Origin: Clostridia bacterium
Lineage (GTDB): Bacteria; Bacillota; Clostridia; Christensenellales; Aristaeellaceae
Length of the DNA: 64,000 nt
Direction of reading: 5' to 3'
Assembly (NCBI GenBank): GCA_017543905.1
Contig: JAFYFC010000043.1
Location: 1 to 64,000 of the forward strand
The position numbers and the translations under genes were made by a program. A model generated the notes under the pieces. The model did not search any database, was not told the DNA's origin, and worked only from the letters and a program-made list of their open reading frames with translations. This document shows, piece by piece, positions 23,126 through 61,113 of the stretch (the first letter of the stretch is position 1; each line of letters starts with the position of its first letter).

Positions 23126-23440
23126 TCGATTGAAATGGAGCTGCGCTCCATTTCAATCGGGTGGGGGGCTGCTTGCGCAGCCCCTCGTTCAAAATGAATC
23201 AAAGATTCATTTTGAACGGCTTGGTTTTTGTAGCTGAATAAGGTTCATGGTTAAAACGTCAGGCGTTCAGCAGATTACGTAACAGGTTTTGCAATTTTTG
23301 CTGAAAATCCTGCTGGATTTTCCGGGCGCAAAAAATGTAAGGTAGCGATTATTTGCTCCGGTCGTCTTCGCTGCGCTCCGCTCGACTTCGCAAAAATCGC
23401 GTCCTCGCGCCGTACAAGCCGCATTTGCGGCAGTGACAAA
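23126..23440. repeat. Structured dispersed repeat, copy 1 (hairpin cassettes plus conserved core)
   Basis: This gene-free stretch holds perfect short-loop hairpins: a 15-bp stem CGATTGAAATGGAGC (23127-23141/23145-23159, loop TGC), an 8-bp stem GGGGCTGC (23165-23184), a 15-bp stem CGTTCAAAATGAATC (23186-23218, loop AAA), an 8-bp stem GAAAATCC (23303-23322, loop TGCT) and a 6-bp GCCGCA stem (23418-23431). Between them, core A (about 23221-23302) and core B (about 23323-23412) are nearly identical to 51628-51712 and 51733-51741 plus 51828-51905. Core B can fold into an imperfect hairpin (GCGATT...AATCGC, 23345-23400). It follows directly on the DUF4097 stop codon; the first hairpin may also end that transcript. 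The rest, 23441-23548, holds nothing I recognise. Confidence 0.85.
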
Positions 23441-34053: not shown

Positions 34054-35385
34054 TCATTCGATATCCATTATTATCACCGCGTCGGAGATCGCGCGGCCGT
34101 CCTTGTAGGGCTTGTTTATCACCTTTTCAAACCACGTGAGCATGGTGCTTTCGCCGCCGTCGAGGTTGTAGGCGCGCGTGCAGCCGAGGCTCTCCATAAG
34201 CTCCGCCAGATTGCCCAGCGGCAGCCCGCGCGAGGCCAGAGAGCGGCCGTCCGCGGTGACCAGACAGTAATGTCCCGGCTCGAAATAGCCTATCACTGTG
34301 CGGGGATTTCGGCCGTGTATGCCGTCGAAGGCGTTAAACACCGTATACGCCTTGCCGTTCTCGTCCAGAAGCTGCGGACCGAAGCACCACGCCTGATACG
34401 CGCCGTTCGCGGTGAGCGTTTCGACGTCCCACGTGTTCGCGGGGTATGTCACCATCGTGCCGTCCCAGTTTATAACGCACGCGTCGAAGCGCGAAAGGTT
34501 GCTGCGGTAAAGCTCGCCGTTTCTGATCATGATGCCGGAGTGGGTGCTGTAGAAGTCCCCGTTCACGGCTACGACGCAGCCCGTGCGCTTTGCGATACTG
34601 TACAGCCACTCGCCTATGCCCGTGCCGTAGGTGTCGCGCGCGAGGCGCGTCTGGAAGCACGCGATGTCCGCCACGTAAATATCCGTAAGATAGTATATGC
34701 AGTCGTAGGTGTCGCCCACGAACTCGTAGGTGTACGTGTTCGTCGTGACCGTTACGTTAAGGTTTTTGCTCTGGTAGAAGTACCTTCCGTTTTCACCGTC
34801 CTCGCGGATCACCTCGCCGTCAGTGAACTTGCCTGCAAACTTGCTGCGGAACACGCCCACCGGATCAGGCGTGGGTACGGGCGTGGGTGAAGGCGTGGGC
34901 GTAGGCACAGGCGTAGGTGTGGGTGTGGGTGTCGGAGTAGGTGTCGGGGTCGGCGTCGGTGTAGGCGTCGGCGTCGGCTCGGTTGATACCTCCGCGCCGT
35001 CTGCGTTTAAAGCCGTTCCCGTCTGCGCGTCCGTGCCGTCGTCCGGCGCGGGAGTATGAGACAACGGTTCGTAAGAGGGAGACGGCTCAGCCGTCTCCTC
35101 CGGCGTCGGTTCAGGTGTCGGCACTGGCGTCGACGTCGGCACAGGCGTTGGAGTCAGCGTCGGCGTAGGCACAGGCGTCGGGTCGGGCGTGAGCTCCGGT
35201 TCAGTTGTATGCTGTGCCGTCTGAACCCCATACGCCGCGCCCGGCCGCGTGATTATCACGTTTTCGGACTTCAGGCGCGTGGGCTTCACGTGGTGAAAAT
35301 ACGCGAACACCACCAGCACTATGCCGGTAAGCAGTATATCCAGTATTATGACGAGCCACAGGGGCTTCGGGCGTTTTTTGAGCAT
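34054..35385 (-). CDS. Membrane-anchored phosphodiester glycosidase (NAGPA-type), paralogue 2
   Basis: The 443-residue protein has a short basic cytosolic start, one membrane helix (~8-28), then a long Pro/Thr linker (about residues 60-185, mostly Thr-Pro dipeptides) and a C-terminal phosphodiester glycosidase domain (~190-443; PF09992). Family marks are '[22 protein letters not shown]', '[19 protein letters not shown]' and '[14 protein letters not shown]' near the end. Related domains cleave GlcNAc-1-phosphodiester sugars, so action on wall or capsule polymers is plausible. The catalytic domain is closely similar to the gene just upstream; the pair is a tandem duplication. Confidence 0.88.
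34866..34983. repeat. Degenerate hexanucleotide repeat encoding a Thr-Pro linker
   Basis: On the plus strand units of the type GGTGTG/GGCGTC/GGTGTA are repeated about twenty times; on the coding (minus) strand they read as alternating Thr and Pro codons of the linker. The third codon positions vary, so it is not a perfect microsatellite, but length change by recombination is likely. A weaker Thr-Pro tract lies at 35110-35200. Confidence 0.75.
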
Positions 35386-35404
35386 TCCGGTCTCCGTTTC
35401 CCGC

Positions 35405-36523
35405 TCAGGCGTCCACGTCCACTATCATGACGGCGTCCGAAATCTTGCGCCCGTCCTTGGAGGGCTCGTTTATCACCCTGTCCCCCCAGGTGAGCATAGT
35501 GGATTCGCCTCCGTCGAGATTGTACGCCTGCACGCAGCCTATATCGCTCATAAGCTGCGCCAGCGCCTCGAACGTGATGCCCCGCGAGGTCTCCGAGCGT
35601 CCGTCCACAGTTACGAAGCAGTAATGTCCCGGCTCGAAATAGCCTATCGCGGTACGCGGGTTTTTCTTTTTGACTGCGTTGGTGGCGTTGAAGCTTTTGC
35701 AGGGACGGCCGTTTTCGTCAAGCAGCTCGGGTCCGAAGGACCACGCCTGATACGCGCCGTTTTTAACCAGCGTCGCGCTGTCCCATTCCTTGCTCTGGTA
35801 AGTGAGCATCGTGCCGTCCCAGTTGATAACGCACGCGTCGAAGGTGGAGTGCTTGCTGCGGTACATGACGCCGTTTCTGATGACGACGCCGTTTTGACGG
35901 TTGCCGTAATAGTCGCCGTTTATCGCGACCACCGCGTTCGTGCGCGCGGCCATGCTCTGTGTCCACTCGTAAAAGCCGCTGCCGTACTGATCCTGCGCAA
36001 AGCAGGTCTGGAAGCAGTTTATGTTGCTTATATATATGTCCGTTATGTAATACGTGCATTCGTAGACCGACGCGCCGTTTCCGAACGTGAGCGTGTCTTT
36101 GGTTACGGCTATGTTTAGATTCTTGCTCTGATAGCGGTACGTGCCGTCCTCGCCGTCTGCGCGTATCACCTCGCCCTGCGTGAACTTGTCTGCAAATTTG
36201 TTTGCGAACACTCCGGGCGGGTCAGGCTCGGGCTCGGGCGTCTGAGTCGGTTCGGGGGTGCGCTCGGGGCTCGGCGTCTCCTGCAGCGTAGGCGTTTCCT
36301 CCGGCTGGGCCGTGGAAGCGGGCGTCAGAGTTGCCTCAGGCGCGGGCGTTTCCTGCGCGGAGACGGTCGCGGGCGCGGTCGGCCGCGCGATAATTATGTT
36401 TTCAGATTCCATGCGGCTGGGTCTTACGTGGTGAAAATATGCAAACACCACCAGCACTATGCCGGTAAGCAGTATATCCAGTATTATAACGAGCCACAGA
36501 GGCTTCGGGCGTTGTTTGAGCAT
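35405..36523 (-). CDS. Membrane-anchored phosphodiester glycosidase (NAGPA-type), paralogue 1
   Basis: The 372-residue protein repeats the layout of its neighbour: nearly identical N-terminal membrane anchor ('[20 protein letters not shown]'), a shorter Thr/Pro/Glu linker (~45-105) and the phosphodiester glycosidase domain (~110-372) with '[20 protein letters not shown]', '[19 protein letters not shown]' and '[16 protein letters not shown]'. GGGAGGAAC precedes the ATG. It is the first gene of a minus-strand run of ten closely spaced genes ending with rsmI. Likely acts outside the cell on a sugar phosphodiester; substrate unknown. Confidence 0.88.
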
Positions 36524-51585: not shown

Positions 51586-52027
51586 GCAAAGCTTCGATCG
51601 AAATGAAGCGTTGCTTCATTTCGATCGGGTTGGTTTTCTGCAGCTGAATAAGGTTCTTGGTTAAAACGTCAGGCGTTCAGCAGATTACGTAACTGGTTTT
51701 GCAGTTTTTGCTGAAATCTCTGCGGAGATTTCCGGGCGCAAGGCGCACCGCCTCAAATCGCAGATTTGAGCCGATGCGTCCCGCCGAAGGCGGGATTGAT
51801 TTGCCAATGGCAAATCGACCTCAAATTGTAAGGAAGCGATTATTTGCTCCGGTCGTCTTCGCTGCGCTTCGCTCGACTTCGCAAAAATCGCTCCTCGCGG
51901 CGTACGAGGTCAACTTGCCTGCTGGCAAGTTGATCCCGCTATGCGGGACGCTTTGGCTCAAATAGAATTTGAGACAAAGCGCCTTGCCGCCGCTGCGGAA
52001 TGAAATTGGAGGGGCAAGCCCCTCCAA
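51586..52027. repeat. Structured dispersed repeat, copy 2 (hairpin cassettes plus conserved core)
   Basis: This copy starts 2 nt after a stop codon, as copy 1 does. The first stem is CGATCGAAATGAAGC (51595-51609/51613-51627, loop GTT), core A is 51628-51712, and the next stem is GAAATCTC/GAGATTTC (51713-51732). Then come extra small stems absent from copy 1: CTCAAATC/GATTTGAG, TCCCGCC/GGCGGGA and GATTTGCC/GGCAAATC (about 51751-51816). Core B (51828-51905) follows, then CAACTTGCC/GGCAAGTTG, TCCCGC/GCGGGA, CTCAAAT/ATTTGAG, and a terminator-like TTGGAGGGGC/GCCCCTCCAA (52006-52027). Stems shared with copy 1 differ at paired positions, so pairing is preserved. The remaining 52028-52116 holds nothing I recognise. 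Confidence 0.85.
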
Positions 52028-52116: not shown

Positions 52117-54936
52117 TTAATCGTTCTCAGCCGTATCTTCGCTATCCGTGACCGGCACTTGCTGACCCATGAGCCATGAAAAGAAGGGAGTCATCGCCTC
52201 CTCGGGCGCGGGTTCGCCGTAATACTCGTCCTCGCCGTATCCGTAATAGTCATAATCGGTCTTCGGCACGTAATCCGGGCTGTAGTACGTGCTGCCGCTG
52301 AAGCGCACCCGGCAGCGCTGGGTCTCGATGCTGTTGAAGCCGCAGTCCCGGATGGTCACGTTGTTGAACTCGGTGCCCTCGCAGTCGCTTATGACGGCGG
52401 CGTATCCGCTGCATTCGTATATCTCGCTGTCGTTCACATGGATATCCACGCTGCCGAAGGCGTTTACGCCGTTCACGCCGCAGCCGTACAGCCCGCAGTT
52501 ATTCAGCGTGCACCTGTCGCAGCCCATAAAGGAGATCACGTCGCCCATGCAGTTGCCGAGGCCTCCCACGTGACCCAGCACGAGCCCGTCAAGCGTCACG
52601 CCGCTGCAATACTTGAAAGCCATTACGTTCGCGGAGCGAGGCACGATTTCCACGTTGGCCTTGCCGTTTGATGCGACTATCTTCATGTTGTCGATGCCGA
52701 TAAGCACCAGCTCGTAGCCGTCAAAGCACTGCATCCAGTAATAGCTCGAGCTGCCGTCTCCGCCGTAAGCATAGGCGGAAGAAAGCTCGTAATCGTCGCC
52801 CTCGAGGTATATCACCCTGTCGCTTCCGAGGCAGGCGAGCAGCTCGTCCGACGTATTCACGTGATACTCGGTCGTGCCGTCGTCAAGCAGCTTTCCTTCA
52901 GGCTTTTCGGTTTCCGGCAGCGCCCACTCGGTTTCGGTGAATTCCGCCCACTGCATGCTTTCGAGCGCTGCCGCGTCCAGCGGCTCGCCGTCCAGATCGA
53001 ACACGTTTTCGCAATCGCGGTCGAACCATGCACGCGCTTTAAGGCCGTTGTTTCTGAACTCGCAGTACTCCACCGAGACATTGTCGCCGCTGACCGCGAA
53101 GCCGGTTTCGAAGCGGTTGTCGTAAACGCGGCAGCCCGCAAGCTCAAGAACGTGCGTGTTCGAGGATTCGACGAAGCAATCCACGTGGTTATTGTAAATC
53201 AGCGTGTTGTATATGCCAAATAACGTATTGTTGTAGCTCTCGACGAGATACGGTCCCGCATAGCCGTCGTGGGCCTCGCAGTCGTGGAATTCACATTTGT
53301 CGAAAACGACGTCGTAGCTGTTTGCGATATCCAGCGCGCCGGTAGAGCATTCCTTGATCACGGTGTTCTCGCAGCGCAGCTTCCAGCACTCGTTGGCCAG
53401 AACGCCTATCGTGCCGCAGCCGTACAGCACGCTGTCCTGAATGCTCACGCCGCAGCAGCCGTACAGATTTATTACAGCGCCCTGACAGGCGTCCGGCAGC
53501 TGCGTATGGCCGCAGGTGACGCCCTTGATCGTCACGTTGTTCGCGCCTAAGAGCTTTAAAACGTCCGCGCTGCGGGGCTCAGTGATTATGCTCACCTGCT
53601 CCGCTCCGCCTTCGCCCGCGATGGTCAGGTTTCTGACCACGTCCAGAACCAGTGTATAGCCGTCGTCGATTTGTTCCCAGTAGTACTCCTCGCCCTGCGT
53701 GCGGCCGTAAGCCGCGGCTGCGGACAGGTCGTATGTGCCGGGGGCGAGCAGTATAGTGCGGTTGCTGCCTATGGCTTTTATGAATTCGTCTGCGCTGCTT
53801 ACGCGCACGGTTTCGTATTCGGTCTGGGCGGTGTCGGTATTGCCCGTGTCTGCGCCCGAGCTGGCCCTTGCGGGGCCCAGCACGAACGCGCAGCCCGCGA
53901 TCATCATAAGCACGGCGAGGCTCAGCGCCAGCGCCTGTTTTCCAAGTTTTTTAAAGGTCATTATTTGTACCAGCCTTTCTTTTAAATCGCGCTTCTGTGT
54001 GGTAAAGCTCACCGCGATCACGCGGCGCGGAAGCGCTCTGTCCGCGGCGAGATTCAATAGCAGCTCGCCATAGGACCGTTTATCGTTCCTGTCCATGCGC
54101 CTGAGCAGATTCTGATCGCAGCTCAGCTCGCAGTACAGGGTAGTCTGCGTGCGGAACAGGTAAACCAGAGGATTGAACCAGTGGATGGAGTAAGCCAGGG
54201 TCTGCAGCCATTTGAGCGCCAGATCGCCCCGGCGGTAGTGCGTAAGCTCGTGGCGCAGTATGCGGTCGAGGTCTTCGGAGGTATACTCGCGGTCCGGCAG
54301 TACGATCACCGGCCTTATCAGCCCCAGCAGCAGCGTGGTGCTGATCCTGTCGCTGCGGTACAGCGCGGGATACGGCGAGGCATTGAGCGCCGCCAGCACG
54401 GAGCTGTCCAGCGGCCGGGCAGGCTTAAGCGTTCTGAACAGCAGATGTCTGAAATGCCCGAAGCTGATCAGCGTTCCGATAAAGCTGACGAGCGCGCCGC
54501 TCAGCCACATATAAAACCAGAGCGCGGGATTTCGGTACAGCGGAACGGAAGACGCATTTCCAGCAGCGTCCGCCGCGCGGCCTGTTTCCGCCGCGGGCAC
54601 GTTCGCTTCGCTGATTATCTCAGATGCGGCGGTATTTTTGCGGGCGTCTTCACGGGTGAGCATGCCTTCTGTGCGCACGAGCGGGGACACGTACAGTCCC
54701 CCGTTCCCGTCGCCGCGCACAGTGTAGAGTATGCTTTCGGGCGCGGTCTTTGTGAAGCTTATACCAACCAGCCCGCTCACCGGCAGCACGAAGCGCAGTA
54801 TGACCAGCGCCCAGCACAGGTATATAAAGGCGCTGGACACGCGCTTTTTGCCGACCTTCGACAAAAGCAGTACGAGCAGTCCCAGCGCGCTGCCGCACAC
54901 GGAGAGCGAAAGCAGGATCAGCAGAAAATTCTCCAT
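52117..54936 (-). CDS. M56 (BlaR1-like) membrane metalloprotease fused to two parallel beta-helix domains
   Basis: The 939-residue protein has an N-terminal M56 peptidase-membrane module with helices near residues 3-25, 35-58, 138-160 and 335-353 and the zinc motif H229-E-L-T-H233 followed by 'CELSCDQ' (Glu270). Instead of the beta-lactam sensor domain of BlaR1, residues ~375-630 and ~680-900 form two similar domains with runs such as 'GVSIQDSVLYGCGTIGVLANECWKL' that look like right-handed parallel beta-helices, each opening with a 'LxxLGSxRxIxLxxxxYxLS' strand pair. The tail is acidic and Tyr-rich. By analogy an outer signal activates the protease, which cleaves the BlaI repressor encoded 1 nt upstream. 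Confidence 0.9.
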   Translation of the reverse strand: MENFLLILLSLSVCGSALGLLVLLLSKVGKKRVSSAFIYLCWALVILRFVLPVSGLVGISFTKTAPESILYTVRGDGNGGLYVSPLVRTEGMLTREDARKNTAASEIISEANVPAAETGRAADAAGNASSVPLYRNPALWFYMWLSGALVSFIGTLISFGHFRHLLFRTLKPARPLDSSVLAALNASPYPALYRSDRISTTLLLGLIRPVIVLPDREYTSEDLDRILRHELTHYRRGDLALKWLQTLAYSIHWFNPLVYLFRTQTTLYCELSCDQNLLRRMDRNDKRSYGELLLNLAADRALPRRVIAVSFTTQKRDLKERLVQIMTFKKLGKQALALSLAVLMMIAGCAFVLGPARASSGADTGNTDTAQTEYETVRVSSADEFIKAIGSNRTILLAPGTYDLSAAAAYGRTQGEEYYWEQIDDGYTLVLDVVRNLTIAGEGGAEQVSIITEPRSADVLKLLGANNVTIKGVTCGHTQLPDACQGAVINLYGCCGVSIQDSVLYGCGTIGVLANECWKLRCENTVIKECSTGALDIANSYDVVFDKCEFHDCEAHDGYAGPYLVESYNNTLFGIYNTLIYNNHVDCFVESSNTHVLELAGCRVYDNRFETGFAVSGDNVSVEYCEFRNNGLKARAWFDRDCENVFDLDGEPLDAAALESMQWAEFTETEWALPETEKPEGKLLDDGTTEYHVNTSDELLACLGSDRVIYLEGDDYELSSAYAYGGDGSSSYYWMQCFDGYELVLIGIDNMKIVASNGKANVEIVPRSANVMAFKYCSGVTLDGLVLGHVGGLGNCMGDVISFMGCDRCTLNNCGLYGCGVNGVNAFGSVDIHVNDSEIYECSGYAAVISDCEGTEFNNVTIRDCGFNSIETQRCRVRFSGSTYYSPDYVPKTDYDYYGYGEDEYYGEPAPEEAMTPFFSWLMGQQVPVTDSEDTAEND

Positions 54937-54937
54937 A

Positions 54938-55315
54938 TCATTCGTCCTCCATTTTGAACATAGCCCTGAGCTCGTCTATGTCCGCGCGGCTCAGGCCCCT
55001 GCCCTTGACCAGCGCCGCCACGAGCTCCTGCGCGCTGCCCTTGAACAGGCGGTTGACCATGTCGCCCGCCGCCCAGGCGTTGTATTCGTCCCGGCTGAGA
55101 CAGGGCTCGTAATAAAACACGTCCCGCTTTTCCTGCGAAAGCACTCCCTTTTCGCAAAGCCGCCGTATAAGCGTTTTGACGGTGGGGTCGCTCCAGTCGA
55201 AGCGAGCCTGCAGGCTTTTGCGTATCTCCGCAAGCGGCAGGGCGTCCCCCGCCTCCCACAAAACCTGCATTACCTCGAGCTCCGATGCGGAGATCTTCTC
55301 GGCGAGATTTTTCAT
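54938..55315 (-). CDS. BlaI/MecI/CopY-family transcriptional repressor
   Basis: The 125-residue protein has the BlaI/MecI winged helix: 'ISASELEVMQVLWEAGDALPLAEI' then 'SDPTVKTLIRRLCEKGVLSQEKRD' and 'FYYEPCLSRDEY', followed by a helical dimer domain. It binds palindromic operators and is released when a BlaR1-like protease cuts it. The ATG at 55315 follows AGGAGG; an in-frame upstream start lies in the promoter. Its stop codon is one nucleotide from the start of the M56 gene, so both are one operon. Confidence 0.94.
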   Translation of the reverse strand: MKNLAEKISASELEVMQVLWEAGDALPLAEIRKSLQARFDWSDPTVKTLIRRLCEKGVLSQEKRDVFYYEPCLSRDEYNAWAAGDMVNRLFKGSAQELVAALVKGRGLSRADIDELRAMFKMEDE

Positions 55316-55326
55316 GCTGTACCTCC

Positions 55327-55384
55327 TATACAGATGACGCGCGTCATCTGTATACACTATACCGCACCGGATGACAGTTGTCAA
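55327..55384 (-). promoter_or_regulatory. Promoter and 28-bp palindromic operator of the BlaI-M56 operon
   Basis: On the minus strand TTGACA (55379-55384) and TATAGT (55356-55361) have a 17-nt spacer. Just downstream, TATACAGATGACGC is followed directly by its complement (55327-55354), a perfect 28-bp palindrome over the transcription start and just before the ribosome binding site. A smaller TGACA/TGTCA repeat overlaps the -35 box (55373-55383). Confidence 0.88.
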
Positions 55385-55790: not shown

Positions 55791-57734
55791 TCAGTATGGT
55801 TCGTAAACCAACTCTTCACCGCGATAAACAGTCAGATTTGAACCTGTGAATGGATTGCCTTCAAATCTAATGTCTTCGGGCAGGATCAGTGTCCCGGTCA
55901 GACCTGTGCATCCACCAAAGGAATCGGCGAACAGTCTTTGCATCGTGGATGGTATGACCGGCAAACCTGTAAGGTTTATACAACCAGAAAACGCGCCGCT
56001 ATTCAGCATATAATAGCCTTCAGGTATAATAAGAGTTCCTTTCAGATTCGTACAGTCATACAATGCATAGAAGCCAACACCGACAACAGGTTCTCCTTGA
56101 TAAGTTGTTGGCAATTTGACATTATCTGTTTCAACACCGTTGCATCCCATGATAAAATAGCCGGTTTCAATACTTTGGCTGTTATAGTTATAGAACGTTT
56201 CTTTCTCAAATAGCCAATCGATTTCTGGAGTTCTGCCATCAGCGTAAACAATTATAGCTTCACTAAATAATCCAGTAAACGCATCTTTGCCAACATAGGT
56301 TACTGATGATGGAATAATAACAGCTTGTCCATCGGGAATTACTGATGTATAGGCAAAGGCATAATCACCTATGGTTTCCAATTTTTCGGGCAAATCACTT
56401 AGTGCTGTAAACTGCGTCAGCGCAAAAGCATTACGCCCAATCCTTTCCAAGTTGGGTGGAAGGATGATTTGTCCTTGTAGAGAGGTTCGATAAAAAGCAT
56501 AACTACCAATTTCTATCAGGCTTTCGGGTAACGTCAGTGTCCCGTTCAAGCTAAAGCATTCATTAAATGCTTCGGTTCCTATAATCATCAATCCTTCAGG
56601 AAAAACCAAATCCCCCTCGAGATAGTAGCACCTCCTAAATGCAGCTTTTGAAATGATCTCTATCCCTTCCGGAAAATTTATGTGGTTAATTCTGCACTGA
56701 TAAAACGCAGTCTCTTTTAAGGTCATCAATCCATCTGGCAAAACAACAGTTCCAGATAGCAAGCCATAAGTGCCATCCATAAACTCTCCGTCAGCATATG
56801 CAAAAGCGTCCTCGCCAACCACTTTAAGAGTTGATGGCATAATCAACGTTCCTTCTATTGATGCCCAATTTTGGGGATTAAAGTCTTGTAAGACCCTTTG
56901 GTTTCCATCTCCAATTTGTACAACATCATAACCGTCCAGTGTGTCAGGTAAACGAACAGTCCCTTTTACGCGACCGTGGAATGATGTGATAACAGCCTTA
57001 TTATCAACGATACGCCAAGATATCGCCCAATGATTCCATTTTTCCTGAATATCCGTTCTCCCAAAAACATCATGTCCCCAATAAGTAACGGTTTCTGGTA
57101 TATTGACCTCCCCAGATAAGCCGACACATCCTGAAAATGCTACTTCTCCCATATACTGTAATGTGTTGGGCAGGGGTGAAATACTCGAGAATCCACATTC
57201 ATAAAAAGCACCACACCCTATTTTGCGAACGGTATTTGGAATGTACAGATTCCCAGTTAAACTGTTTTCATTTGATAAGGCATACTCACCTATTTCAGTA
57301 ACAGCCATGCCATTTATGCTTTGCGGAATTGTGAAATCGTGGAATGTATGGCCATTTGTGTAAAAACTCGTTATTGTAATCCCATCATTATTAAGTTCAT
57401 ACTCGTATAGTTCCAAATATTCGTTCCATGTTAAAACATAGAGACCTGTATTATCAAATGCACCTTCGCCTATTGTTTCCACTGTTTCAGGCAGAATAAC
57501 CGTACCAGTCAAACCAGTGCAACCATCAAATGCATGAGCTCCGATACGAGTGACACTATTGGGTATAGACAGTGAACCAGTAAAACCGCTACATCCTGCA
57601 AATGCATAATCCTTAATTTCTGTGATGTCCGCTGGGAGCGTTAATGTATTTTCTTGGCCATAGGCTGTCAGCCCCAAGCCAATGAACAAAACAAACATCA
57701 AAACGAATGACGAAATTAAAATAGTCTTTTTCAT
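55791..57734 (-). CDS. Secreted BspA-like LRR_5 surface protein
   Basis: The 647-residue protein has a signal peptide (MKKTILISSFVLMFVLFIGLGLTAYG) and then almost only LRR_5 repeats of about 23 residues with the pattern 'IGxxAFxxCxxLxGxLxIPxxVxxIG', about eighteen in all, two of them preceded by spacer segments of the 'YNNDGITITSFYTNGH' type. Such BspA-like proteins are surface adhesins or binding proteins. No anchor motif is seen at the C-terminus (ends VYRGEELVYEPY). Codon use is AT-rich, unlike the GC-rich neighbours, which suggests acquisition. GAGGTG precedes the ATG at 57734. Confidence 0.9.
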   Translation of the reverse strand: MKKTILISSFVLMFVLFIGLGLTAYGQENTLTLPADITEIKDYAFAGCSGFTGSLSIPNSVTRIGAHAFDGCTGLTGTVILPETVETIGEGAFDNTGLYVLTWNEYLELYEYELNNDGITITSFYTNGHTFHDFTIPQSINGMAVTEIGEYALSNENSLTGNLYIPNTVRKIGCGAFYECGFSSISPLPNTLQYMGEVAFSGCVGLSGEVNIPETVTYWGHDVFGRTDIQEKWNHWAISWRIVDNKAVITSFHGRVKGTVRLPDTLDGYDVVQIGDGNQRVLQDFNPQNWASIEGTLIMPSTLKVVGEDAFAYADGEFMDGTYGLLSGTVVLPDGLMTLKETAFYQCRINHINFPEGIEIISKAAFRRCYYLEGDLVFPEGLMIIGTEAFNECFSLNGTLTLPESLIEIGSYAFYRTSLQGQIILPPNLERIGRNAFALTQFTALSDLPEKLETIGDYAFAYTSVIPDGQAVIIPSSVTYVGKDAFTGLFSEAIIVYADGRTPEIDWLFEKETFYNYNSQSIETGYFIMGCNGVETDNVKLPTTYQGEPVVGVGFYALYDCTNLKGTLIIPEGYYMLNSGAFSGCINLTGLPVIPSTMQRLFADSFGGCTGLTGTLILPEDIRFEGNPFTGSNLTVYRGEELVYEPY

Positions 57735-57854
57735 GTCGCACCTCATATGCTTGATTCGTCTCCGATAGGGAAAGATGGTTTCATTTGGTGGGTTCTGCAC
57801 GCTTTTTTGCGTTTGGGTGTGTTTGCGCCAGAAGCATAGTCCGCCCCGTGCACG

Positions 57855-58477: not shown

Positions 58478-61027
58478 TTACCCGATCGGATGACTGTAGT
58501 GATGGAAGCCGCAGGTTTCGGTATGCGTTTCGCCCCAGGGCAGGAAGACGTCCGCCGCCGCGCCGAAGGGCACGGTCAGGTATACGTGTATTTCTCCGTA
58601 ACGCTTTACCCAGCGCAGCGTCACGTCGCCCAGCGGCGTTTCGACATTTGCCGAGGCGCTCAAAAGCTTTTGGGGCAGCACCGGTCTGACCGAAAACCGT
58701 CTCCAGCCGCCGTCTGTGGGCGCAAGCCCGCACAAGACCGCGTACAGCCATCGGTACGAGGACGCGTGCATGGGATGGTTATGCGAATTCATGCCGCAGT
58801 TTTTCTTAAGCTCGAAGCGCTCCCATACCGTCGTGGCCTCGTTCTGCAGCATATATCCGAAGGACGGATAATCCTGCCTGCAGATTATTCTCCACGCGTC
58901 CTCCACGTAACCGTAGCGCGCAAGCTGCTCCAGCAGGTAACGGGTGCACAGGTTGCCTGTAGTGAATTTATAATTACTGCTGACGATATCCTCGTGCAGC
59001 ACGTCGGCAGCCTTCTGCCTGCCGCTTTCCGGCAGTATATCCAGACAGAGCGCGAACGCCTGACACGCCTGCGAAGATGTGCCCACGGTACCGCTCTGCG
59101 GGTCGTACCATTTGGCGAGAAACGCCTTGCGGATGCGCTCCGCGTCGGCGGCCTGACGCCTGCGCTCCCCGTCATCGCCGAGCACCTCGGCCATCCTGCC
59201 GAGCAGCACAGCGTTGTAATAGTGATACCCGGTGGACATAAGTATGCCGGGCGTGACGCGGGAGCGCGCGCCCTCCTCGCTTTCACAGGCATACGCCGGG
59301 CCTGCCCAGTCCCCGTAATAGCTGTAATTCACTATGCCGTCGTCGCTGCGGCTTTCAAGCAGCTCGTTCCACGCCCTGAACGCCGGATACGCCTCGCGCA
59401 GCAGCTCCTTATTGCCGGTATGCAGCCACGCCTGCCAGCCCGCTACCAAAAACGACGAGCATACGGGATCGGCGGGTCTCCCTCCGAAGGCGAACGGCGC
59501 CGTGCAGGTGATGCTGCCGTCGTCGCCCTGCACGTCCGTTATATCGCGCACGACCTTCGGAAACAGCCTTCCGACGTCGAACAGATACGGCGTCGCCTCA
59601 AAGCGCACGGTCGCGTCGTTCATCCAGCCCATTCTTTCGTCCCTTTGCGGACAGTCCGTGAGGATGGAATGGATGTTCGCCTTTTCCGTCTGGCGCGCCA
59701 TATGCTCGAAGCTGTTTGCGATCGGCTCGCCCGAGGTAAAGCTCGTCGCCTTTTCAATATCCGTATACATGCTCACCGCGGAAATGTCCTGCCTGAGCAG
59801 CGCCTCGGGATAGCCGCTCACCTCGGCGTAGCGGAAGCCGTGGTACGTGAATTCGGGTTGCCAGTATTCCGGATCGCGGCCGTTTCCGGCGGCGATATAG
59901 GTGTCGAGCGCTGCGGCGTGTCTGAGCTGCGGCAGATACAGCCGTCCGTCCTCGTCAAGAAATTCGATCTGCCTGATCGTGATCTTCGTGCCCGGAGCAA
60001 TGCTTTTCGGTATCCTCAGGCGGCATACGCCCGCGATATTCTGGCCGAAATCCGCCGCCCACGCGTCCTGTGACACTCTGAACACGCTGCGGGGCGCGTA
60101 GACCTCCTGCGGCTTTATGTATTCGAGCGTCTGCGGGGAAAGCTTTTTAGTAGGACACGGCACTGTTTCGGGACGTATCGCGTCCGCGATGCGGGTATCC
60201 GGCTTAGACCAGTCTGCGATATACCTGCGCGCGTCCGTCGTTTCTCCCATGAAAATATCCGAATACGTCACCGCGTCATAGAAAAGCGACCAGCTGCCGT
60301 CGCTGCACAGCCATTTTACGCTGCCGTCCGCAAAAACCAGCCTGAGCGCCGCGCTCATTACGGTTCTGCCCGCATACTCCGGAGCGCGCTTCATATTTCT
60401 GTAGCACACGATATTCGGGTTTCTCCAGCCCGCCGCGACCCTTACGCCGAGTCTGTTCACGCCGTTCACGAGGAAGCCGCCGACGTCCGGCAGCACGTTG
60501 TAATACGCGCGCTGTTCGTACTCGCTGAACGCGGGATTCATCGGATATCCGAATACCTCTGTGCCGTTTATATACGTTTTCTGGTAACCAAGTCCGCACA
60601 CGAACAAACACGCCGAAACGCAGCTGCTTGTCAGCTCGAAGTCCTTGAAGAAAGAGAGTACGGCACCGCCCTTGTCGTTCGGGTCGCCGAGCCATTCGCC
60701 CGGCCACGGCGCGAGACTGCCCGCGCAGAACAGACGGCTGTCTGAGCAAGTACGTCCGTTCGAATCGCTAAGCTCTACGGCGACTTTATAGATTTCGCCC
60801 GCCTCCAATGCTTTGCCGCCATAGCGCGCCTCCTGCGGCACGTCGCCGTACAGGCGCGTTTCCCACAGGATTTCTGTTCCGTGCGCAACGGTCACGCGCG
60901 CGCAGACCAGCGTCTCGTCAGCGTCGGGCGCGACCGCCCACGCAAACGCCGGCGCAGGCGTTTCCACTATCTGAACGGCGGCGGGGTCGGTTTTTCCGTA
61001 TTCGATCCTTATGGCGTATGGTTTCAT
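58478..61027 (-). CDS. Alpha-L-rhamnosidase (GH78)
   Basis: The 849-residue protein has the GH78 layout: N-terminal beta domains (~1-330, including the Bac_rhamnosid_N segment 'ACLFVCGLGYQKTYINGTEVFGYPMNPAFSEYEQRAYY' region), a linker domain, the six-hairpin catalytic barrel (~420-760) with 'TDCPQRDERMGWMNDATVRFEA', in which acidic residues act in catalysis, and a C-terminal beta domain. There is no signal peptide, so it acts in the cytosol on imported oligosaccharides. It removes terminal alpha-L-rhamnose from plant glycosides or polysaccharides. The start at 61027 is chosen because the typical N-terminal strand begins there. Neighbouring BNR-type enzymes suggest a glycan-use locus. Confidence 0.93.
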   Translation of the reverse strand: MKPYAIRIEYGKTDPAAVQIVETPAPAFAWAVAPDADETLVCARVTVAHGTEILWETRLYGDVPQEARYGGKALEAGEIYKVAVELSDSNGRTCSDSRLFCAGSLAPWPGEWLGDPNDKGGAVLSFFKDFELTSSCVSACLFVCGLGYQKTYINGTEVFGYPMNPAFSEYEQRAYYNVLPDVGGFLVNGVNRLGVRVAAGWRNPNIVCYRNMKRAPEYAGRTVMSAALRLVFADGSVKWLCSDGSWSLFYDAVTYSDIFMGETTDARRYIADWSKPDTRIADAIRPETVPCPTKKLSPQTLEYIKPQEVYAPRSVFRVSQDAWAADFGQNIAGVCRLRIPKSIAPGTKITIRQIEFLDEDGRLYLPQLRHAAALDTYIAAGNGRDPEYWQPEFTYHGFRYAEVSGYPEALLRQDISAVSMYTDIEKATSFTSGEPIANSFEHMARQTEKANIHSILTDCPQRDERMGWMNDATVRFEATPYLFDVGRLFPKVVRDITDVQGDDGSITCTAPFAFGGRPADPVCSSFLVAGWQAWLHTGNKELLREAYPAFRAWNELLESRSDDGIVNYSYYGDWAGPAYACESEEGARSRVTPGILMSTGYHYYNAVLLGRMAEVLGDDGERRRQAADAERIRKAFLAKWYDPQSGTVGTSSQACQAFALCLDILPESGRQKAADVLHEDIVSSNYKFTTGNLCTRYLLEQLARYGYVEDAWRIICRQDYPSFGYMLQNEATTVWERFELKKNCGMNSHNHPMHASSYRWLYAVLCGLAPTDGGWRRFSVRPVLPQKLLSASANVETPLGDVTLRWVKRYGEIHVYLTVPFGAAADVFLPWGETHTETCGFHHYSHPIG

Positions 61028-61113
61028 AATGCTTCCGCCCTTTCCCTGCGCGTGCCGCGCAGCCGTTTGCGCATTCATCCAGGCAAGCTGCCTATCAGGC
61101 TTACATCCCCTTT

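Follow-up and report, generated by a model that had tools for sequence, protein, structure and literature searches.

What does a signalling protease of the BlaR1 type respond to when its C-terminal part is not a penicillin-binding domain? The question is raised by a gene pair in the first 64,000 nucleotides of contig JAFYFC010000043.1 (assembly GCA_017543905.1, a Clostridia bacterium), the whole of which we refer to as the window. A BlaI-family repressor gene (54938..55315, minus strand, stop codon included; 125 residues) is followed by a gene for a BlaR1-type M56 metallopeptidase with a tandem beta-helix ectodomain (52117..54936, minus strand, stop codon included; 939 residues). We conclude that the pair probably encodes a self-regulated proteolytic relay of the BlaI/BlaR1 type, in which the beta-lactam sensor is replaced by an extracellular tandem of a right-handed beta-helix domain specific to Clostridia.

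A repressor-protease pair with operator-like dyads at its promoter

The M56 gene starts one base past the BlaI stop codon. The repressor most likely starts at the ATG at 55315, with AGGAGGT ahead of it. The upper end first proposed for the repressor, 55384, overshoots this start by 69 bases and falls on the initial T of the −35 TTGACA, within the promoter. Penicillinase_R (PF03965) matches the repressor at 101.8 bits (Pfam cut-off 22.6), and residues 2–120 align end to end with MecI (1okr), a full-length winged-helix match. The 939-residue protein matches Peptidase_M56 (PF05569) over residues 7–324 (53965..54918, minus strand) at 163.8 bits (cut-off 31) and Beta_helix (PF13229) in two stretches, at 60.4 bits, over the Pfam cut-off. 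The genome (2.75 Mb, 55 contigs) has a single BlaI gene and, by the family cut-off, a single M56 gene; one more M56 match is weak and falls under that cut-off.

Alignment to the solved BlaR1 chain 8exp matches the zinc site His229, Glu230, His233 and Glu270 (HELTH, residues 229–233) to BlaR1 His201, Glu202, His205 and Glu242, and Asp238, Asp274, Tyr289 and Arg321 to Asp210, Asp246, Tyr261 and Arg294. Ser310-Phe311 (54004..54009, minus strand) is the equivalent of the BlaR1 autocleavage bond Ser283-Phe284 (roles of the BlaR1 residues and bond from PMC9834060). As aligned, the protease residues and the autocleavage Ser-Phe are intact. The BlaI/BlaR1 layout claimed in the original prediction is borne out by the two Pfam matches and by these aligned residues. 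Both genes and their architecture are confirmed as real; the arrangement is kept across the genus, so the pair is neither a chance reading frame nor an assembly chimera.

Hydropathy analysis gives four hydrophobic membrane helices with positive charges on their inner flanks. The fourth (about residues 336–355; 53872..53931, minus strand) is followed directly by Ala-Arg-Ala (residues 356–358; 53863..53871, minus strand), which resembles a signal peptidase I site and is found as A-[RK]-A in six type A orthologues; BlaR1 is cut at the equivalent place by the signal peptidase SpsB (PMC9834060). The positive-inside pattern, the Ala-x-Ala site and the occurrence of homologous free domains behind a signal peptide (see below) agree with a predicted N-out/C-out topology and support the extracellular C-terminal part that had been proposed.

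The promoter (TTGACA, 17-bp spacer, TATAGT; 55356..55384, minus strand) carries two operator-like dyads. O1, TGACAACTGTCA, lies across the −35 box (55372..55383), and O2, the 28-bp perfect palindrome TATACAGATGACGCGCGTCATCTGTATA, follows the −10 box and precedes the start codon (55327..55354). The latter is the longest perfect zero-loop palindrome in the window. With up to three mismatches it occurs once per genome, always before the BlaI/M56 operon, in 5 of the 7 genus members; as for the other two, one assembly ends before the promoter and one genome has a diverged version, TTGACACGTGTCATCT. In two other families the M56/beta-helix pairs likewise have two dyads in this layout, there with a more usual TACAnnTGTA-like core. 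The operon therefore looks autoregulated and, judged by occurrences of the full operator, appears to be its own sole target: scanning the genome with the palindrome, as had been suggested for finding regulon members, returned the full operator before this operon only. This resembles Clostridium thermocellum, in which BlaI requires inverted repeats in two pairs and the regulon of one BlaI is confined to its own operon (PMC8457756). The BlaI_1845 and BlaI_0696 operons of that species share with the present pair small regulons and two inverted-repeat pairs per target, one of them being self-only; they differ in that the partners are annotated as BlaR1 and the operons hold additional genes (PMC8457756).

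We considered and largely rejected a wider regulon through TTGACAnnTGTCA, which has three further sites in the genome. Two of them, twin sites at C5, have a TetR-type regulator on one side and lon on the other; because of this position, and because sites of this kind also occur with TetR homologues in two other genus members, they are most likely operators of TetR. The third precedes an ABC-transporter binding-protein gene. At the C5 locus (L051 2600–5615, G000) the TetR-type regulator and the lon protease gene are divergent, and the stretch that separates them contains two TTGACAnnTGTCAA palindromes spaced by 40 bp. Sites similar to this pair accompany TetR homologues in the two other genus members, and the TTGACAnnTGTCAA pairs elsewhere in the genome most likely belong to the TetR-type regulator beside lon.

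A predicted beta-helix ectodomain with a conserved edge site

The C-terminal part had been described as two duplicated beta-helix domains of about 250 residues each. Tandem homologous units are indeed present, D1 (residues 376–570; 53227..53811, minus strand) and D2 (residues 691–885; 52282..52866, minus strand), which are 36% identical over 186 columns (E 4e-31); the repeated unit is shorter than stated, about 195 residues, and about 120 further residues, some of them in extra coils, follow D1. An AlphaFold2 model of the ectodomain from a two-row alignment has a mean pLDDT of 68, with D1 mostly at 80–90 and a disordered tail. Foldseek and VIA-align place the model among right-handed beta-helices, with a best Z of about 25 over about 260 residues and a root-mean-square deviation (rmsd) of 2.8. 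Structure prediction, proposed as the check on the fold, thus agrees with the PF13229 match, and a right-handed parallel beta-helix fold of the C-terminal units is supported by the model.

The nearest folds to D1 are AlgE epimerases, polysaccharide lyases (PL6), GH110, RbmB and tailspikes (rmsd 2.6–3). At about 10–17% identity the fold is alike and an enzyme activity of D1 is not implied. The ectodomain has no significant sequence relative in the PDB, solved beta-helices included, nor any significant family-level sequence match there that would place it with the polysaccharide lyases or alginate epimerases. Since a shared fold does not reveal a ligand, these carbohydrate enzymes and tailspikes do not supply one.

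Conservation within the domain is concentrated in a small set of residues. Tyr410, Trp420, Leu429, Arg455, Val459, Gly476, His477, Cys484, Gly486, Val488, Gly506-Cys507-Gly508 and Cys530 are invariant in 26/26 unit copies from several families. Among 29 more distant copies, Gly506 is kept in all 29, Cys484 and Cys530 in 28 each, His477 and Cys507 in 25 each, and an acidic residue (Asp or Glu) stands at position 529 in 27; Arg455 is kept in 12 only. The D1 site defined by these alignments comprises Arg455, His477, Cys484, Gly506-Cys507-Gly508 and Glu529-Cys530 (53347..53574, minus strand). As judged from strand positions in the model, not from coordinates, Arg455, His477, Cys507 and Cys530 fall at or just past the same strand on four successive coils, and D2 repeats this register with Arg767, His789, Cys819 and Cys842 (52411..52638, minus strand). 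The second unit of a diverged paralogue (type B, see below) has lost the conserved-site residues. The near-invariant Arg-His-Cys-GCG-Cys edge looks like a ligand, metal or catalytic site.

The extracellular loop 1 of the protease holds a second conserved element. Residues 81–97 (LYVSPLVRTEGMLTRED; 54646..54696, minus strand), a 17-residue segment picked after viewing the alignment, have 59% invariant columns among type A proteins vs 5% and 3% in the flanks. In BlaR1, the end of loop 1 (sensor-blocking residues 87–94) occupies the binding groove of the sensor and is displaced by the drug (PMC9834060). By analogy, the conserved segment may be a tethered plug of the beta-helix groove.

Distribution of the pair and of the domain

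Searching other genomes for the same fusion, another step that had been proposed, recovered orthologues in the genus and BlaI/M56/beta-helix pairs in two other families. Full or near-full M56/beta-helix orthologues (61–75% identity) are present in 6 of 7 genus genomes, our own included, and the seventh has a fragment at a contig end; a metagenome-assembled genome from goat abomasum is among the genus genomes that carry the pair. A second, diverged M56/beta-helix gene (type B) occurs in two members of the genus, in one of them with its BlaI gene on the contig. Related to the type B receptor is a free exported tandem beta-helix in one genus member (L037 1372–3069, G073), whose signal peptide aligns with the fourth transmembrane helix of the M56 proteins.

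Within the order, the domain is found mainly in one other family, where it occurs on an M56 protein with BlaI, on free exported proteins and on membrane proteins behind extracytoplasmic function (ECF) sigma genes. It was detected in 41 of 391 sampled Clostridia genomes, and this class-wide sample adds another BlaI-M56-beta-helix pair, lipoproteins, and proteins with SLH or Cu_amine_oxidN1 domains. A phylum-wide sample gave almost no members outside the class. The beta-helix is a distinct domain family and a recurrent module on three kinds of protein. Its recurrence on other signalling and surface proteins of Clostridia suggests that it is probably a reusable sensor for an outside signal. In a tree of M56 domains the beta-helix-bearing proteins group to the same side of a modestly supported branch (84/87), so that a single ancient M56/beta-helix fusion is possible. 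Different C-terminal parts are found on nine further M56 proteins of the family, none of which gave a match to a penicillin-binding domain.

The ECF sigma genes (Pfam matches for three of them) stand directly ahead of the beta-helix membrane proteins, which this layout marks as putative anti-sigma factors. At L073 3786–6830 (G244), and likewise at L162, L163 and L164, an ECF sigma gene is followed by a gene for a protein with one membrane helix and the same beta-helix ectodomain, which looks like a sigma/anti-sigma pair. Serpin-like genes (NLSPISVYLALAMV...; judged by eye) lie on either side of the sigma/beta-helix pair at L164 (241–1683 and 3829–5172, G547).

What the relay may sense

On the reading that we favor, a BlaI dimer would at rest sit on the two dyads, O1 at the −35 box and O2 past the −10 box, and hold expression of its own operon low. 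The two beta-helices of the membrane protein, which would be N-out/C-out, would bind an outside ligand through the conserved edge groove, formed by Arg, His, Cys, GCG and Cys on successive coils. Binding would shift the sensor and extracellular loop 1 and so switch on the cytosolic zinc protease, which would cut BlaI near residue 101/102 and derepress the operon. That the same beta-helix family also occurs on putative anti-sigma factors, whose genes immediately follow ECF sigma genes, fits a sensor role. Polysaccharide sensing is plausible; a polysaccharide or cell-wall glycan is our first guess at the ligand, one somewhat more apt to be wrong than right.

The pair shares much with BlaR1/BlaI and MecR1/MecI of Staphylococcus aureus (PF05569, PF03965): the gene pair itself, the protease family with its catalytic residues and autocleavage Ser-Phe, four membrane helices, a long extracellular loop 1, a C-terminal domain that is probably extracellular, and operators at its own promoter. 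It differs in the tandem beta-helix that stands in for the penicillin-binding domain, in the residue at P1' of the BlaI cut site (Leu for Phe), and in having no known target gene. RsgI anti-sigma factors of C. thermocellum, membrane transducers said to sense different outside polysaccharides (PMC12203970, PMC4711584), offer a further parallel; their output is a sigma factor freed by regulated proteolysis, and the available portions of these sources describe no beta-helix ectodomain of this family.

Several observations weigh against a BlaI/BlaR1-like sensor. The P1' residue, Leu102, aligns with Phe102, which is nearly invariant in BlaI, and this weakens a simple equivalence; Leu is also found in the genus orthologues and in L074 and L160, and a Phe at this position is not a condition for membership of the BlaI/MecI family. 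Regulation of its own operon alone, with no second target gene known, would be a strange outcome of sensing. Free or anchored surface proteins with this domain outnumber the sensors that carry it, so that surface binding or an enzymatic function could be its main job. The full-length AlphaFold2 model, from a two-row alignment, is unusable (pLDDT 42.5).

The main rival, which we regard as unlikely, is that the beta-helix is the output of the system and not its detector. BlaI and the M56 protein would then only set the dose of a surface beta-helix, signal peptidase I would shed the domain at the Ala-x-Ala, and the released domain would bind or modify a surface glycan. Such an arrangement would account for the full operator at the BlaI/M56 operon only, for the A-[RK]-A past the fourth membrane helix in type A orthologues, for the free exported homologue with its signal peptide at the position of that helix, and for the many homologues that are lipoproteins or carry SLH or Cu_amine_oxidN1 domains. 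It fits less well with the joining of the same domain to putative anti-sigma factors, and for mere delivery it would be costly to place two copies on a signalling protease whose catalytic residues are intact; BlaR1, moreover, is likewise shed yet is still a sensor. Slightly less likely again is an ectodomain that senses metal or redox state, and not a glycan, through its near-invariant His and Cys. The site would fit metal binding, redox sensing or catalysis too: His477, Cys484, Cys507 and Cys530 are kept in 25–28 of the 29 distant copies, the weaker second Pfam match is to NosD, a periplasmic copper-binding family, and several homologues have Cu_amine_oxidN1. However, stacked Cys residues occur often within beta-helices and may have a structural role, conservation is just as high for the GCG turn and, in the closer copies, for Arg455, and no metal genes were seen adjoining the pair.

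An ordinary BlaR1-family beta-lactam sensor would have the same repressor/protease pair, and the protein does match NCBIfam blaR1_generic in part (92.6 bits). That match covers residues 142–349 only, however, and is far under the equivalog cut-off of 400 bits. Pfam searches at E up to 1 found no transpeptidase or penicillin-binding (SxxK) domain in the 939-residue protein, and the C-terminal part is a predicted beta-helix, in line with the original suggestion that this fold stands in place of the penicillin-binding sensor. Beta-lactam sensing is very unlikely, and a role as a direct beta-lactam sensor is nearly refuted.

Our searches of the open-access literature found no description of an M56/BlaR1 protein with a beta-helix sensor. 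The relay itself has been described before. For the receptor domain, for its conserved site and for the use of one domain by two kinds of relay, the papers searched offered no precedent, which is no proof of absence. A bolder reading, which we hold to be less likely than not, is that of an undescribed receptor domain of Clostridia, with an Arg-His-Cys-GCG-Cys site, used in at least two unrelated relays (M56/BlaI and ECF sigma/anti-sigma) and as a free surface protein. Different machines would then read one class of ligand, and the M56 loop-1 segment (YxSPxxRTEGxLTRE) would be a tethered groove plug that the ligand displaces. Antibiotic sensing is almost the only role in which BlaR1 has been studied; in these rumen/gut-type Clostridia the same protease is joined to another receptor domain, one that is clearly defined and has a conserved site. 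If the sensor reading is correct, the M56/BlaI relay would be a general chassis for outside sensing, linked to putative anti-sigma factors with the same domain; it would provide a defined site and a loop as targets for mutation, and would allow the loop-displacement model of BlaR1 to be examined with a ligand that binds non-covalently.

The genes flanking the pair differ among relatives, and because the neighborhood is not conserved, gene context gives no hint of the ligand. Upstream of the pair in the window are genes for a BspA-type leucine-rich-repeat surface protein (55791–57800) and an alpha-L-rhamnosidase (58478–61078), which are not beside the pair in relatives. An intergenic element rich in short hairpins is present in two copies (23218–23400 and 51628–51891), pieces of which are 87–96% identical; one copy lies just downstream of the M56 gene. 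Elsewhere in the window (34054–36523), two adjacent minus-strand genes have common repeats that are 75–87% identical, and the first of them encodes a NAGPA phosphodiester glycosidase domain and a low-complexity repeat linker.

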